Of a stretch of DNA of 34,094 bases, positions 12,036-17,211 are shown piece after piece. The notes beneath the pieces are model-generated. The model saw only the letters and a list, made by a program, of their open reading frames with translations, was not told the DNA's origin and did no database searches. The DNA is taken from the NCBI GenBank assembly GCA_003599255.1, contig QZJF01000013.1:1-34094 (forward strand), read 5' to 3'. The first letter of the stretch is position 1. The number at the start of each line of letters is the position of its first letter. The translations under genes were made by a program, and so were the position numbers. Origin of the DNA: a candidate division WWE3 bacterium (GTDB taxonomy: Bacteria; Patescibacteriota; WWE3; UBA101185; UBA10185).

Positions 12036-12064
12036 TTGACTAACAATTTTAATTTTGATATTAA
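12036..12064 (+). promoter_or_regulatory. Putative sigma70-type promoter for the structured leader
   Basis: TTGACT (12036-12041), 17-bp spacer, TATTAA (12059-12064). Confidence 0.5.
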
Positions 12065-12084
12065 TTTATAACTATATGACTACA

Positions 12085-12272
12085 ATGTCTAAAACCCTCA
12101 ATTTAATATCTTTCGCACAGGCTACCGATAAGGCAGTCCTTAAGCCTGTTTGCATGGTTAGATATATTTTGACCCACTTTTGGTTTGGAGCGTCAGGAGG
12201 GTTTGTCTTGTAGGATATAGAAAAAAGGCTTCGCAGATTACAAGCACCTCCTGATAACAGGAGGTTTTTTTG
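12085..12272 (+). ncRNA. Structured leader/small RNA with nested helices, candidate antiterminator and terminator
   Basis: AAACCCTC(12092-12099)/GAGGGTTT(12197-12204); ATATCT(12106-12111)/AGATAT(12160-12165); ACAGGCT(12117-12123)/AGCCTGT(12143-12149); TAAGG(12129-12133)/CCTTA(12138-12142); CTTGTA(12207-12212)/TACAAG(12239-12244); terminator 12246-12271; alternative pair TCAGGAGG(12193-12200)/CCTCCTGA(12247-12254). Confidence 0.6.
12246..12271 (+). terminator. Rho-independent terminator
   Basis: ACCTCCTG-ATAA-CAGGAGGT followed by a T tract. Confidence 0.85.
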
Positions 12273-12285
12273 TTTTCACGGAGAC

Positions 12286-12357
12286 TTTTGATATATCGGT
12301 TTTTGCCTTTGGCACATTAGCACCCATGCGCCAAGGGCAGTAATCGGCATATCAAAA
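12286..12357. repeat. Long imperfect inverted repeat/stem-loop
   Basis: TTTTGATAT(12286-12294)/ATATCAAAA(12349-12357) enclosing TGCCTTTGGC(12304-12313)/GCCAAGGGCA(12330-12339). Confidence 0.7.
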
Positions 12358-12439
12358 AAAGATACAAGCACATTGATAAGGTTGCCGCGCTTTGCCGAGA
12401 GTGCGGTTAATACTGCATCTGAGCAAAGGAGAGTATACG

Positions 12440-14029
12440 ATGAAAGGTTTACCTACATTTGTCGCCCATAGCGGTGACGTACTGGGTATGAAGTGTCTGG
12501 ATATCTTGAAATCCACCAGACCAAAGTATCCGGTATTGGTAATCAGAGACGGTGAAACGGCTCCCGCAGGAACTATCGCTATATACGCCGGTGAAGCCAG
12601 AAACGGCAATTCCGTTGTATATCGAAACCAGCAGTGGCCTTCTCGTCATCTTCGGGTTGCGGCTCATCGCATTTATGAGACAAGGCCGGAATGGGCAGAG
12701 ACAACCCCTTTTGTTGTGGCTGTCAGAGACAACAATAGGGGACACTTGGACAGAGCCTTGCTGTACATGGCAGAAATGTACACAAGGTGGTTTAGAGGAG
12801 AAGCGGGTGTCAGGCTTCCGTGGGAAACCTGGAACGGACATCCGACAACCTATCAGGACTTGATGGAGGGCTGGTTTGACTTTGTGCAGGACAGCATTGG
12901 CAGGGATCAACTGGATGAAATCCTTTCAAGCAGAAGGATTCCGGATCAGTACAGGGATCGTGGCGGTGCGGTTGTATATCAACACTTTCCTCGTGAACGG
13001 GTGCTTACTAACAGGGATCAATCTTCGGGAGAAGCCAAATACTTGTCCTTTGGAACATCAAGCCTTGCGTCGCCACACGACTTTTTACAAGCCATGAAGG
13101 CGGCAATAGAAGCAAATCTCCCTTTGCAGTTCTTCACATACGGCGAAGCATATGATGCCGGAAGACACCTTCGGGAGAGGCTCCTGCCGAGTCTGAAAAT
13201 ATTCGGCCCGGCGGAAGAGAGCGTCATGCACGGACTTGTACCTCCGGACATGTGGAGCAGGAAGGCTCTGGATGTGTTTATGAATCCGGTGGAAGTTTCG
13301 GCATCGTTTTACAGTATGGGACTTTCCAAAATTGCTGAGACAGCAGGTTCCGAAGCGGGATGCAACATGGCTGAATGGTATCGGAATGCCTTGAGAATTT
13401 TGGCTGATAAAGTATTGCAGGTTGTTAAGTCCGACCTTCTAATAACTCTGGAGGAGGAAACCCTACCTGCTCAATACGCTCAATTGCGTGTTTCAGCATT
13501 GGCGGACATGGTGCATGTTGCATTGGGACACTCAGGAAACATTCTCAACGGTCCCTCAGGGGAAAACGTTCCAAGTGATCTTGCCGGATTCAGTTCTCTT
13601 TCCGGGAAAACTCTTGGCGAGTTGTTTTCCAATGGCTGGTGGCTAGGAGGTGCCTCGATCTACTACCTTTGGTACAAGCAGTCAGAGGTAATTCCGTTTG
13701 TAAGTATGGTCAATGACGGAGATTGGGGAAAAGTCAACCTGATGGCACGTGAGTGGCTTAAACCGCCTTATGAACTTTATGCCATGCCGGTCGGGTACTA
13801 TCGCATTTATCCCAGGTTGCACTCTGGTGAACTAAGCCATACCGCGATAGATCCATGGGTGTTTTTGGAGTTGATGGAACGGTGGGGAAGTGCTGTCACT
13901 GCTTCTGTCATTCGACGCATGTGGGAAAGCCTTGAAGCGCCTTTAAAAAGGCACAACATAGGCAAGCGCACCTATATAGAGGTGGGGGAAAGCGGCATAT
14001 CTGTCCGCGTAGTGCCTCCGGCTCAATAG
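12440..14029 (+). CDS. Orphan 529-aa protein of unknown family; possible divergent GIY-YIG-like N-terminal domain
   Basis: ATG 12440 preceded by AAAGGAGAG; the 12392 start in the ORF track is less likely; TIAIYAGEARNG...RHLRVAAHR...PFVVAVRDNNRGHLDRALLYMAEMY is faintly GIY-YIG-like. Confidence 0.8.
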   Translation: MKGLPTFVAHSGDVLGMKCLDILKSTRPKYPVLVIRDGETAPAGTIAIYAGEARNGNSVVYRNQQWPSRHLRVAAHRIYETRPEWAETTPFVVAVRDNNRGHLDRALLYMAEMYTRWFRGEAGVRLPWETWNGHPTTYQDLMEGWFDFVQDSIGRDQLDEILSSRRIPDQYRDRGGAVVYQHFPRERVLTNRDQSSGEAKYLSFGTSSLASPHDFLQAMKAAIEANLPLQFFTYGEAYDAGRHLRERLLPSLKIFGPAEESVMHGLVPPDMWSRKALDVFMNPVEVSASFYSMGLSKIAETAGSEAGCNMAEWYRNALRILADKVLQVVKSDLLITLEEETLPAQYAQLRVSALADMVHVALGHSGNILNGPSGENVPSDLAGFSSLSGKTLGELFSNGWWLGGASIYYLWYKQSEVIPFVSMVNDGDWGKVNLMAREWLKPPYELYAMPVGYYRIYPRLHSGELSHTAIDPWVFLELMERWGSAVTASVIRRMWESLEAPLKRHNIGKRTYIEVGESGISVRVVPPAQ

Positions 14030-14117: not shown

Positions 14118-14885
14118 ATGAAAGAACTTAAAGAAGAAAAATTAAAAGTTTTAGTGTTTACTGCTCACCCGGATGATCATTTTCCGTGCAGCGGCACTAT
14201 GATAAAACTGCGGAAAGCGGGAATGGAGCTGTACGAGTGTCTATTTACCGACGGGGAGACTTCCGGAATGTTTAAAGACGGTAAGTTTCAGGAAAACGTG
14301 AATAAAGAAGAACTTAAAGAGGTTAGATCAGAAGAATTCAAAAAAGCTACAACAGTGCTTGGCACTAAAGAAGTATTCCTCCTTCATCAGCCCAATAACG
14401 GTATTCAACGCAATTACGATCTAGTCCTAAAGGTTATTGAGTTAATCAGAAAAGTGCGTCCGTACATAGTTCTAATGCATGGTTCTAATGACTATCACCC
14501 CGACCACAGAGCGCTTCATGAAATAGTCGTTGAGGCACTTCGTGCTGCAAGCATTCCCAAGGCGCTGGAGCTCGGAGAACGATATAGGGTTCCTATAGCC
14601 CTCTGTTTTGATGGGCTCTATATGACCAATTCGCAGTTAATTATGGATGTCAGCGATGTAGAGAATGATAAAAAAGAAATTGTTGAATGCTACAAGAGCC
14701 AGATACCCCAAAACACAATAGGTTACAAAGTTGACGATGCTATATGTACTTACAGGGCTTACCAGAGGGGATTTATTAATTATCTGGAGAAAAGCGGCGC
14801 TATGGCCGAGGCATTTTCGATTCCAGAAAAGTATCCGATTGCGGGGGATGAGATTTTGCGCTTTCTGTTGGCACAAAGTCAATAA
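14118..14885 (+). CDS. PIG-L/LmbE family deacetylase
   Basis: VFTAHPDDHFPCSGTMIKL and LMHGSNDYHPDHRALHE motifs. Confidence 0.93.
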   Translation: MKELKEEKLKVLVFTAHPDDHFPCSGTMIKLRKAGMELYECLFTDGETSGMFKDGKFQENVNKEELKEVRSEEFKKATTVLGTKEVFLLHQPNNGIQRNYDLVLKVIELIRKVRPYIVLMHGSNDYHPDHRALHEIVVEALRAASIPKALELGERYRVPIALCFDGLYMTNSQLIMDVSDVENDKKEIVECYKSQIPQNTIGYKVDDAICTYRAYQRGFINYLEKSGAMAEAFSIPEKYPIAGDEILRFLLAQSQ

Positions 14886-14888
14886 AAA

Positions 14889-16442
14889 ATGGAAAAACCA
14901 CGAATAATTATTGTAATGTCATGTTACTACCCATACATAGGCGGTGCCGAAAATCAGGCAAAACTGCTGGGGGAGAAATTGGCCGAAAAAGGGTGGAAAA
15001 TTACTGTTCTTACAAAGAAAAGACGACCTGATCTGCTTGAATTCGAGAAGTTAAATGGTGTAAGTATTTTCAGAGTGAACCATGGTGTACCGGGAATTTG
15101 TTACAATCTTTTCCGGTTCCGCAGCATGTATGACGTAGTAATTTTTGCAGGTCAACTATCCAATGCGTCGAAGATAAAGGTTTTTTTCCAGATGGTTGCA
15201 GGTGCAGCACTGAAACTTTTGTTCAAGAAAAAGGTTTTTTTGTGGCCAACTTCCGGCGCGGACAGATACAAGCTATTGCTGGATCCTTTCTTAAGCAGGA
15301 AATTGTTGCAGTTTTTTGATGGCATACTATGTAAAAGCAACGAGCAATTTGAGTACTTCTCTGAAATTGCGGGTAAGGAAGCCGAAGTATATGCTCCCCC
15401 GTGGAGTATGGTCGACGTAAATAAATACAATATTCCTGACGAAAACGAAGTATGTACTATTCGTAACGACCTTGGAATTCCGAATGATGCCATAGTCTTA
15501 TTATTCACGGGAAGATTATTTGAGGGGAAGGGAATTGATCTTCTCCTTGACGCATTTGAGGCTTTATATGAAGATTCCAAGCTTTTTTTACTCATTGCAG
15601 GGGCAGTACCTGTCGGGGAATTGGAATCTAACCCATACGTCAACCGTATTAAAAACGCATCATTTTACACGGGCTCCTGTTTGCTCGTTTTAAACGATTT
15701 CGATACGGAAAAATATTTTAAAGCGGCTGATATTTTTGTATTTCCTACATACTCGGAAGGTTGCCCTGTAGTTCAGCTTGAAGCTATGGCCACAGGATTA
15801 CTATGTGTGGCTTCCGACCTGACACCTATCAAAGAGAAAATCCGACAAGGCGAAACCGGTTATCTTTTTAGATCAGGCGATCTTAACGATCTCATAGTCA
15901 AAATAAAAATGGCTTTAAGCAATTTGAATAATAAAGTAATGCGCTCTACCGCCAGACTCGAAGTATCGGAAAAATACTCTATAGAAAATGTAACCTGTAG
16001 ATGGGAAAACCAATTGACAGAATATTGGCTCAGAACAACTCATGGGGTGATTATGCTCACACCATGGGCGTATCCTAGAATCGGCGGAATACAAAAAATT
16101 AGCCTGGAGACAGCAAAACGACTTGTTCGGCAGGGGTTCAAGGTAACAATAGTGACTAGAAAGCACATCAACGCACTAAAAACCCGGGAAACAATAGAAG
16201 GGATTCGTTTGGTCAGACTTTCCTGTATCCCATACGTAATGTACATTCAGTTGTCATTTTTATTAGTTAAAGAATGGAACAACTTCAGACATTTTTCAGT
16301 TTGGGGGGCTTACGGCTCATTCATTAACTTACCTATTTTGATTGGTGCCCTTGTACTGAGAGTTTTGGGTAAAAAAGTTTCCGTCAGGCTTTCTAATCAG
16401 CTGATGGACAATGAGGTATATGCTGAAAAAGTCACTATTTAA
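14889..16442 (+). CDS. GT4 glycosyltransferase fused to the N-terminal half of a second GT4 (ends at apparent frameshift)
   Basis: First GT4: SCYYPYIGGAENQAKLLGEKL...FPTYSEGCPVVQLEAMATGL; second starts at about residue 387: VIMLTPWAYPRIGGIQKISLETAKRL, then premature stop. Confidence 0.85.
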   Translation: MEKPRIIIVMSCYYPYIGGAENQAKLLGEKLAEKGWKITVLTKKRRPDLLEFEKLNGVSIFRVNHGVPGICYNLFRFRSMYDVVIFAGQLSNASKIKVFFQMVAGAALKLLFKKKVFLWPTSGADRYKLLLDPFLSRKLLQFFDGILCKSNEQFEYFSEIAGKEAEVYAPPWSMVDVNKYNIPDENEVCTIRNDLGIPNDAIVLLFTGRLFEGKGIDLLLDAFEALYEDSKLFLLIAGAVPVGELESNPYVNRIKNASFYTGSCLLVLNDFDTEKYFKAADIFVFPTYSEGCPVVQLEAMATGLLCVASDLTPIKEKIRQGETGYLFRSGDLNDLIVKIKMALSNLNNKVMRSTARLEVSEKYSIENVTCRWENQLTEYWLRTTHGVIMLTPWAYPRIGGIQKISLETAKRLVRQGFKVTIVTRKHINALKTRETIEGIRLVRLSCIPYVMYIQLSFLLVKEWNNFRHFSVWGAYGSFINLPILIGALVLRVLGKKVSVRLSNQLMDNEVYAEKVTI

Positions 16443-17211
16443 CAAACTTAATAATTATGTAGCCATTAATGAACATTTGGTAGGGGATTACGTGGATCTT
16501 GGTATCGATAAAAACAGAATATCTTATATTCCAAATGGAGTAGATACAAGCATTTTTTGTCCGCCGGATGAATATGAGAAGGTTCGCCTCAAAACCTGTT
16601 TTGATATTCCGCTTAATTTCAAGGTTATTATCTTTTCGGGTAGACTGGTGAAGGAGAAGGGTATTGATACACTTTTGGATGCGTACCGAAAGGTAAAAGA
16701 AGTCTATAAGAATGTTTGTTTAGTTGTAGTGGGAGGGGTAAACCCTGATCCTTCAAGACTATCAAGGGGAGCGATCATCAAAGATTTTGATGCCAAAGCG
16801 TGGGCATTCGACAAAGAAGATGCCGAAAACATTGCAAAGTCCAGAGGCGTCACAGATGTAAAATTTACGTGGTCAGTGCAGAATGTGGCAGATTATCTAA
16901 AGTGCGCCGATATTTATGTTTTTCCTTCAACTTACAAAGAGGGGTTATCCAATTCTTTGTTGGAAGGAATGTCAGTAGGTTTAGCGGTTGTTTCTTCGAA
17001 TGTATCATCGGTACGTACTGTTATTACGGATAAAGAGACCGGGTTACTTTTTGAGCCCGGTAACACTACTGAGCTTGCCTCCGGCTTAACTTATTTGTTA
17101 AAAAGTCCTGCTATGGCAAAAAAGCTTGGTTTAAATGCCAGAACACGAGTATTAGCAGAATATAATATTGAAAAGACAGTGGAAAAGTATGTGGAAGTTT
17201 TTACTGTTTAA
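16411..17211 (+). pseudogene. C-terminal half of the second GT4, in the +1 frame relative to the upstream ORF
   Basis: KSLFNKLNNYVAINEHLVGDYVDLGIDKNRISYIPNGVDTSIF...FPSTYKEGLSNSLLEGMSVGLAVVSSN; lacks its own N-terminal Rossmann domain, which is in the preceding ORF. Confidence 0.6.

Follow-up and report, generated by a model that had tools for sequence, protein, structure and literature searches.

The locus lies in the 1.1 Mb genome of a patescibacterium of candidate division WWE3, within a stretch of 34,094 nucleotides (contig QZJF01000013.1) that is referred to here as the window. Upstream of a gene for a 529-aa protein, we identified a promoter, a short ORF and a set of overlapping RNA helices:

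12036..12064, + strand: sigma-70-type promoter, TTGACT-N17-TATTAA (read directly and found by promoter scan; identical boxes in the same-genus ortholog)
12076..12213, + strand: predicted leader peptide ORF, 45 aa, MTTMSKTLNLISFAQATDKAVLKPVCMVRYILTHFWFGASGGFVL, with the stop codon TAG at 12211-12213 (translation; equal-length, in-frame ortholog in the congener G001; functional counterparts in seven more genomes)
12092..12204, + strand: region 1:2, the P1-closed domain, AAACCCTC (12092-12099) with GAGGGTTT (12197-12204) (fold -32.8 kcal/mol; weakened in G001)
12163..12186, + strand: putative regulatory codon block, Tyr TAT 12163, His CAC 12175, Phe TTT 12178, Trp TGG 12181 and Phe TTT 12184
12193..12206, + strand: region 2, antiterminator 5' arm TCAGGAGGGTTTGT, within the final leader codons (SGGFV) before the stop
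12240..12254, + strand: region 3, the 3' arm of the antiterminator, which overlaps the 5' arm of the terminator
12246..12271, + strand: region 3:4, intrinsic terminator with T7
12440..14029, + strand: first gene of the putatively controlled operon, 529 aa (no Pfam/NCBIfam match; no confident fold match)
14118..17211, + strand: probable remainder of the operon, a PIG-L deacetylase and two glycosyltransferases (Pfam; operon extent inferred)

Alternative helices, leader ORF and downstream genes

The terminator stem has the form ACCTCCTG-ATAA-CAGGAGGT (12246-12265) and is followed by T7, whereas in the alternative structure TCAGGAGG (12193-12200) pairs with CCTCCTGA (12247-12254). The antiterminator (region 2, 12193-12206, with region 3, 12240-12254) has an energy of -21.4 kcal/mol compared to -13.1 kcal/mol for the terminator; positions 12246-12254 are common to both, and the two structures are mutually exclusive. 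The element as a whole folds at -57.8 kcal/mol, against a mean of -44.6 kcal/mol for shuffled sequences (z = -3.1), and the ortholog in G001 is similarly more stable than its shuffles (z = -3.7). A preliminary description of this stretch had proposed an attenuator-like arrangement of promoter, P1, antiterminator and terminator; each of these was found at the positions given there, and the mutual exclusivity is borne out by the pairings, the energies and joint changes of the arms in relatives, described below.

The ORF at 12076-12213, which that description had overlooked, spans P1 and the antiterminator 5' arm, its final codons being that arm. Its ATG is located 11 nt past the -10 box in the promoter scan, and the predicted mRNA is therefore nearly leaderless. 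The five regulatory codons include no tandem pair for one amino acid; the Trp codon lies 13 nt 5' of the matched region 2 stretch, which itself starts 17 nt before the stop. Given the usual ribosome footprint, stalling at HFWF would expose region 2 and arrival at the stop codon would mask it, which is the codon placement expected of a leader-peptide attenuator. When the leader is untranslated, P1 probably ties up the antiterminator arm.

Between the terminator and the gene (12285-12440), there is a second structured stretch, with a hairpin, CCGCGCTTTGCCGAGAGTGCGG, that shows compensatory changes in G001 and a loop, CTTTG, complementary to a CAAAG that overlaps the Shine-Dalgarno sequence. This stretch is possibly a translational control element.

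The 529-aa protein produced no match in searches of Pfam, NCBIfam and PDB sequences. A first AlphaFold model hinted at a BshC/ArgRS-like protein; because a better, deeper model failed to reproduce this hint, we do not claim a bacillithiol-like pathway. Homologs of the 529-aa protein occur sporadically, and a PIG-L-like ORF is also next in three of the other genomes (G012, G077 and G162; similarity judged by eye). The N-terminal domain recurs in larger proteins without a known family (L024, L028 and L030), with ATP-grasp-like motifs discernible by eye, and the family is therefore modular. The putatively controlled operon is not recognisable as amino-acid metabolism.

Conservation of the leader within and beyond the genus

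The element is also present in the one congener examined, G001 (candidate division WWE3 bacterium RIFOXYD1_FULL_39_9), where it is 77% identical. TCAGGAGG, CTTGTAG, TTACAAG, the terminator and the promoter boxes are unchanged, and the leader ORF, of the same length as in the window, encodes MANLTKPSNLICSLQATDKAALKRFNTMRYILVHFWFGGSGGFVL. From QATDK onward, where both peptides have the same residue, the third codon position also matches in 19 of 24 leader codons, compared to 39% of 305 codons in the downstream gene (P = 1.4e-4), and the leader is therefore constrained both as a protein and as RNA; elevated third-position agreement is expected if RNA pairing also constrains the leader codons. RNAalifold applied to the two congener sequences gave no information, since almost every pair is invariant between them. 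A DNA similarity search in plasmids gave no match.

The near-invariance of the core CAGGCTACCGATAAGGC.G.CCTTAAGC between the two congeners, the stable nested fold and the overlap of P1, antiterminator and terminator would all suit a metabolite-binding riboswitch, the reading offered in the preliminary description, in which the P1-P4 domain would be the aptamer and its closing stem would compete with the antiterminator. That core, however, consists of codons of the conserved ORF (QATDKA.LK), so that the supposed aptamer is a conserved, near-leaderless coding sequence, and P1 lacks covariation support because one of its pairs is lost in G001 (GCCCTC opposite GAGGAT). An Rfam scan yielded no family at either gathering or permissive thresholds (the best sub-threshold score was for PyrR, 18.5 bits vs 54), and the T-box and 6S covariance models gave no match. 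A search for the RNA core in the other genomes of the family found it only in the two congeners, yet the layout of leader ORF and antiterminator persists before homologous genes, as shown next. A riboswitch is thus very unlikely.

Homologous loci were collected via homology of the downstream protein, not via the RNA. A leader of this kind, with a short ORF followed by antiterminator and terminator, is present at 9 of the 10 loci, including the window; at the remaining locus, in G193, no clear leader of this kind was found. Outside the two congeners, the leaders, each ending in a stop codon, are:

G012: MQTWKLHMYIRCFINAEQAGMTSVA
G016: MQKVLSRWFHRYFKPTESAGVSSVV
G019: MSISLFRWFYRHLRPTTQAGVIPVV
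G028: MIKNAFEENLNSWHYYCTNPLTAGGFLVVN
G077: MIISLQTMYMWKHPRTPERAGVFFIGTTVKNK
G162: MLNVNLNYWHRYTTLQTAGVSAV
G324: MKQINLAKFTAWYHYMTDPMGLAEFALT

Outside the congeners, these leaders are unrelated in RNA sequence and yet keep one fixed layout. The distance from the leader stop codon to the start of the terminator is 29-37 nt throughout the nine family members; that from the start of region 2 to the stop is 17-24 nt in eight of them and 40 nt in the ninth, G077. Counterparts of region 2, GCGGG or CAGGAGG, are present in 8 of the 9 leaders, and the arms change together, from CAGGAGG/CCTCCTG to GCGGG/CCCGC (combined P = 6e-6 for complementarity between region 2 and the terminator). The pairing is weak in G324 (4 bp, P = 0.73 by strict matching), where TGGGAT/ATCCCA is apparent by eye. 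Covariation supports the antiterminator/terminator exchange, unlike P1.

Just 5' of the antiterminator arm, the family leaders contain clustered W, H and Y, usually together with F. All three residues fall within 12 positions in each of the 8 independent family leaders, whereas this is so in 3 of the 30 leaders outside the family (P = 3e-6), and the chance of a 14-residue block holding W, H and Y is about 2% per leader; such a combined block is unusual.

The persistence of this layout also bears on whether the element might instead be a small RNA in its own right (6S-like), or simply a short terminated mRNA with no relation to the downstream operon. The element has its own promoter and terminator and lies 170 nt, measured from the terminator, from the gene. 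Nevertheless, the layout lies upstream of this gene's homologs even in distant genomes, whereas the gene on the opposite side differs, the divergent hisS being found only in G000 and G001. Together with the grounds that speak against a riboswitch, this makes a free-standing RNA, the other option raised initially, extremely improbable.

Two side observations concern these loci. In G019 and G016, a conserved stretch after the terminator (L015 980-1100 and L016 665-785), unlike that of the window, ends in CGGCAGCAC.TTTAAAAAATGGAG before the start codon and is a possible further leader element. In G027 (L045), the W/H/Y block recurs in a leader (TYWFTHY) upstream of genes for an AstE/AspA-like protein and a glycosyltransferase, which hints at control of more than one type of operon by the putative Trp/His/Tyr signal.

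Putative sister attenuators across Patescibacteria

Patescibacterial genomes were searched with a pattern that specified only the architecture (an arm, a gap, the complementary arm, a loop, a further arm and T6) and was blind to peptide content. There were 16 matches with GCGGG arms and 29 with GGAGG arms, and none in the controls. A prospective check with new arms, GGBGG, was noisier, with control matches and many chance matches, and only promoter-linked leader ORFs were kept. The leaders before recognisable genes are listed below; those given in full end in a stop codon.

GCGGG/GGAGG search, hisS (two): MTNMNLNVSHHSPDPDGGCCCML; MNWFVSAYHWTFLSHTFGRV
GCGGG/GGAGG search, thrS (two), Thr-rich: MLKIILTTSTTTSP; MFAFPAIFTTTTTG
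GCGGG/GGAGG search, pheS (two), Phe-rich: MNRIFYFTYFTSQAGR; MSTNLFSFFFFTSREAVLS (the latter before an AlaX-PheS fusion)
GCGGG/GGAGG search, ileS, Ile-rich: MNMRRIEIIDIIIAPRKGGFFA (ileS comes after a 129-aa ORF)
GGBGG search, thrS (third), Thr-rich: MHIRLNTTTTTTARRVV
GGBGG search, trpB (two): NWWTTSLW; SIWWTAQKLW
GGBGG search, prephenate dehydratase (pheA-like): NFFYFWF
GGBGG search, DAHP-synthase-like genes: LFFYFYFF; NWFFFTDTF

The 12 leaders that precede genes of known specificity contain 50 cognate codons in all, compared to a mean of 20 after shuffling of the labels, and this total was reached in 0 of 200,000 shuffles. The two hisS leaders contain two His codons each and are weak taken singly (P about 0.06-0.08). 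Position and start codon guided the choice of leader ORFs, in part visually, and the shuffle test is the safer statistic for this reason. The cognate-codon rule holds for the putative sister attenuators before these 12 genes. Of 33 leaders, 24 have their ATG 6-11 nt past the -10 box, and the median promoter score is 6.5 for the leaders vs 4.1 for random ATGs. Among the best-scoring hisS and thrS genes of the phylum, chosen regardless of architecture, attenuators were found at 0 of 30 and 1 of 30, respectively, and the system is therefore sporadic rather than universal.

Arrest peptides and antibiotic-responsive leader peptides exist, and the leader could in principle be stalled by nascent-peptide or ligand arrest at its conserved C-terminus (SGGFVL or AGVxxVV, directly before the stop), or by a translation inhibitor, instead of uncharged tRNA. 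Such a mechanism would account for the recurrence of (A/S)-G-(G/V/M)-x-x-V-V as the last residues before the stop; these residues, however, are explained by the region 2 nucleotides, GCGGG or GGAGG. A stall at the stop codon would, moreover, mask region 2 and lead to termination, and the sister attenuators obey the cognate-codon rule. We therefore regard arrest of this type as unlikely.

The architecture searches produced several other matches. In G303 (L116 and L134), tandem attenuators with Met-rich leaders, NMYMMK and MIMAMMQ, precede the gene for a 492-aa protein without a known family. In G018 and G006 (L130 and L133), a match for which no plausible leader peptide is evident lies ahead of an rpsB-like (S2) gene and may represent a ribosomal protein leader. 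Further leaders were found at L122 (G255), L193 (G260), L186 (G298) and L165 (G251); some are rich in Ile or Leu (IITIIISIII, SLLLLG, SIIIAIILL), and one precedes a GreA-like gene.

Proposed mechanism and relation to known systems

Taken together, these results indicate that the element is very probably a ribosome-mediated transcription attenuator, in which a codon-paced leader peptide would control the operon that begins at 12440. Under the proposed mechanism, transcription would start just 5' of the ATG at 12076, and ribosomes would load on the nearly leaderless 5' end. A shortage of tRNA charged with Trp, His or Tyr, and probably also with Phe, would stall the ribosome at Y...HFWF (12163-12186), its leading edge reaching only about the start of region 2. 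Region 2 would then pair with region 3 (12240-12254), no terminator would form, and the polymerase would read into the operon. When amino acids are plentiful, the ribosome would run to the TAG at 12211 and cover region 2, and the terminator (12246-12271) would form; with no translation, P1 would occupy region 2, likewise resulting in terminator formation. The amino acids sensed are inferred from the codon content and from the sister attenuators.

Ribosome-mediated attenuators control trp, his, phe and thr operons of Proteobacteria, with the leaders trpL, hisL, pheL, pheM and thrL, and the mechanism has been modelled (PMC1183508). The patescibacterial elements resemble these attenuators: the regulatory codons lie in a short leader ORF, region 2 falls within or beside its end, and the antiterminator and terminator exclude each other. 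In contrast, the leader described here has a near-leaderless start, combines W, H, Y and F in one block where the others have a run of one amino acid, and precedes an operon that does not look like amino-acid metabolism. A leaderless attenuator mRNA is known in Sinorhizobium meliloti, trpL (rnTrpL) (PMC7298713), and here, too, the transcript is predicted to begin at or next to the leader ATG. The S. meliloti leader differs in being alphaproteobacterial and a single-amino-acid Trp leader.

Among aminoacyl-tRNA synthetase genes, E. coli pheST is controlled by a leader-peptide attenuator. The His leader of Bacilli hisS/hisZ is another such attenuator (PMC2965389), and those of Actinobacteria include Streptomyces trpS and leuS (PMC1262725, 2005). 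Like all of these, the putative patescibacterial attenuators combine a leader whose codons are cognate to the tRNA synthetase gene that follows with a terminator/antiterminator pair, but they have no sequence relation to them, precede thrS, pheS, ileS and hisS, and are sporadic, not fixed. Like the elements proposed here, T-box riboswitches respond to amino-acid starvation through antitermination ahead of tRNA synthetase genes. T-boxes bind tRNA directly, without translation, whereas translation of the leader is proposed here, and the T-box model found no match.

A 2010 survey recorded leader-peptide systems only in Proteobacteria and Actinobacteria, plus the hisS case in Bacilli (PMC2965389). 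Our full-text literature search, which took in few subscription papers and no preprints, found no paper joining Patescibacteria and leader-peptide attenuation. The class of mechanism is known, and its occurrence in Patescibacteria is provisionally new.

According to a 2024 review, cell-cycle regulation in Patescibacteria is virtually unknown, and these bacteria lack amino-acid synthesis pathways (PMC11665869). Near-leaderless leader peptides might constitute a phylum-wide sensor of amino-acid starvation. In this scenario, leaders for one amino acid would serve tRNA synthetase and aromatic genes, whereas a distinct leader combining Trp, His and Tyr (and sometimes Phe) would respond to starvation in general, such as when the cell leaves its host or exhausts it, and would switch on an uncharacterised glycan or small-molecule operon; we consider the case for this broader scenario evenly balanced. 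If the attenuator reading is correct, it would provide host-dependent Patescibacteria with a simple, testable means of sensing amino-acid supply and would mark the operon with the mixed Trp/His/Tyr leader as starvation-induced. It would also supply a natural switch for gene expression in organisms where inducible systems have yet to be developed.
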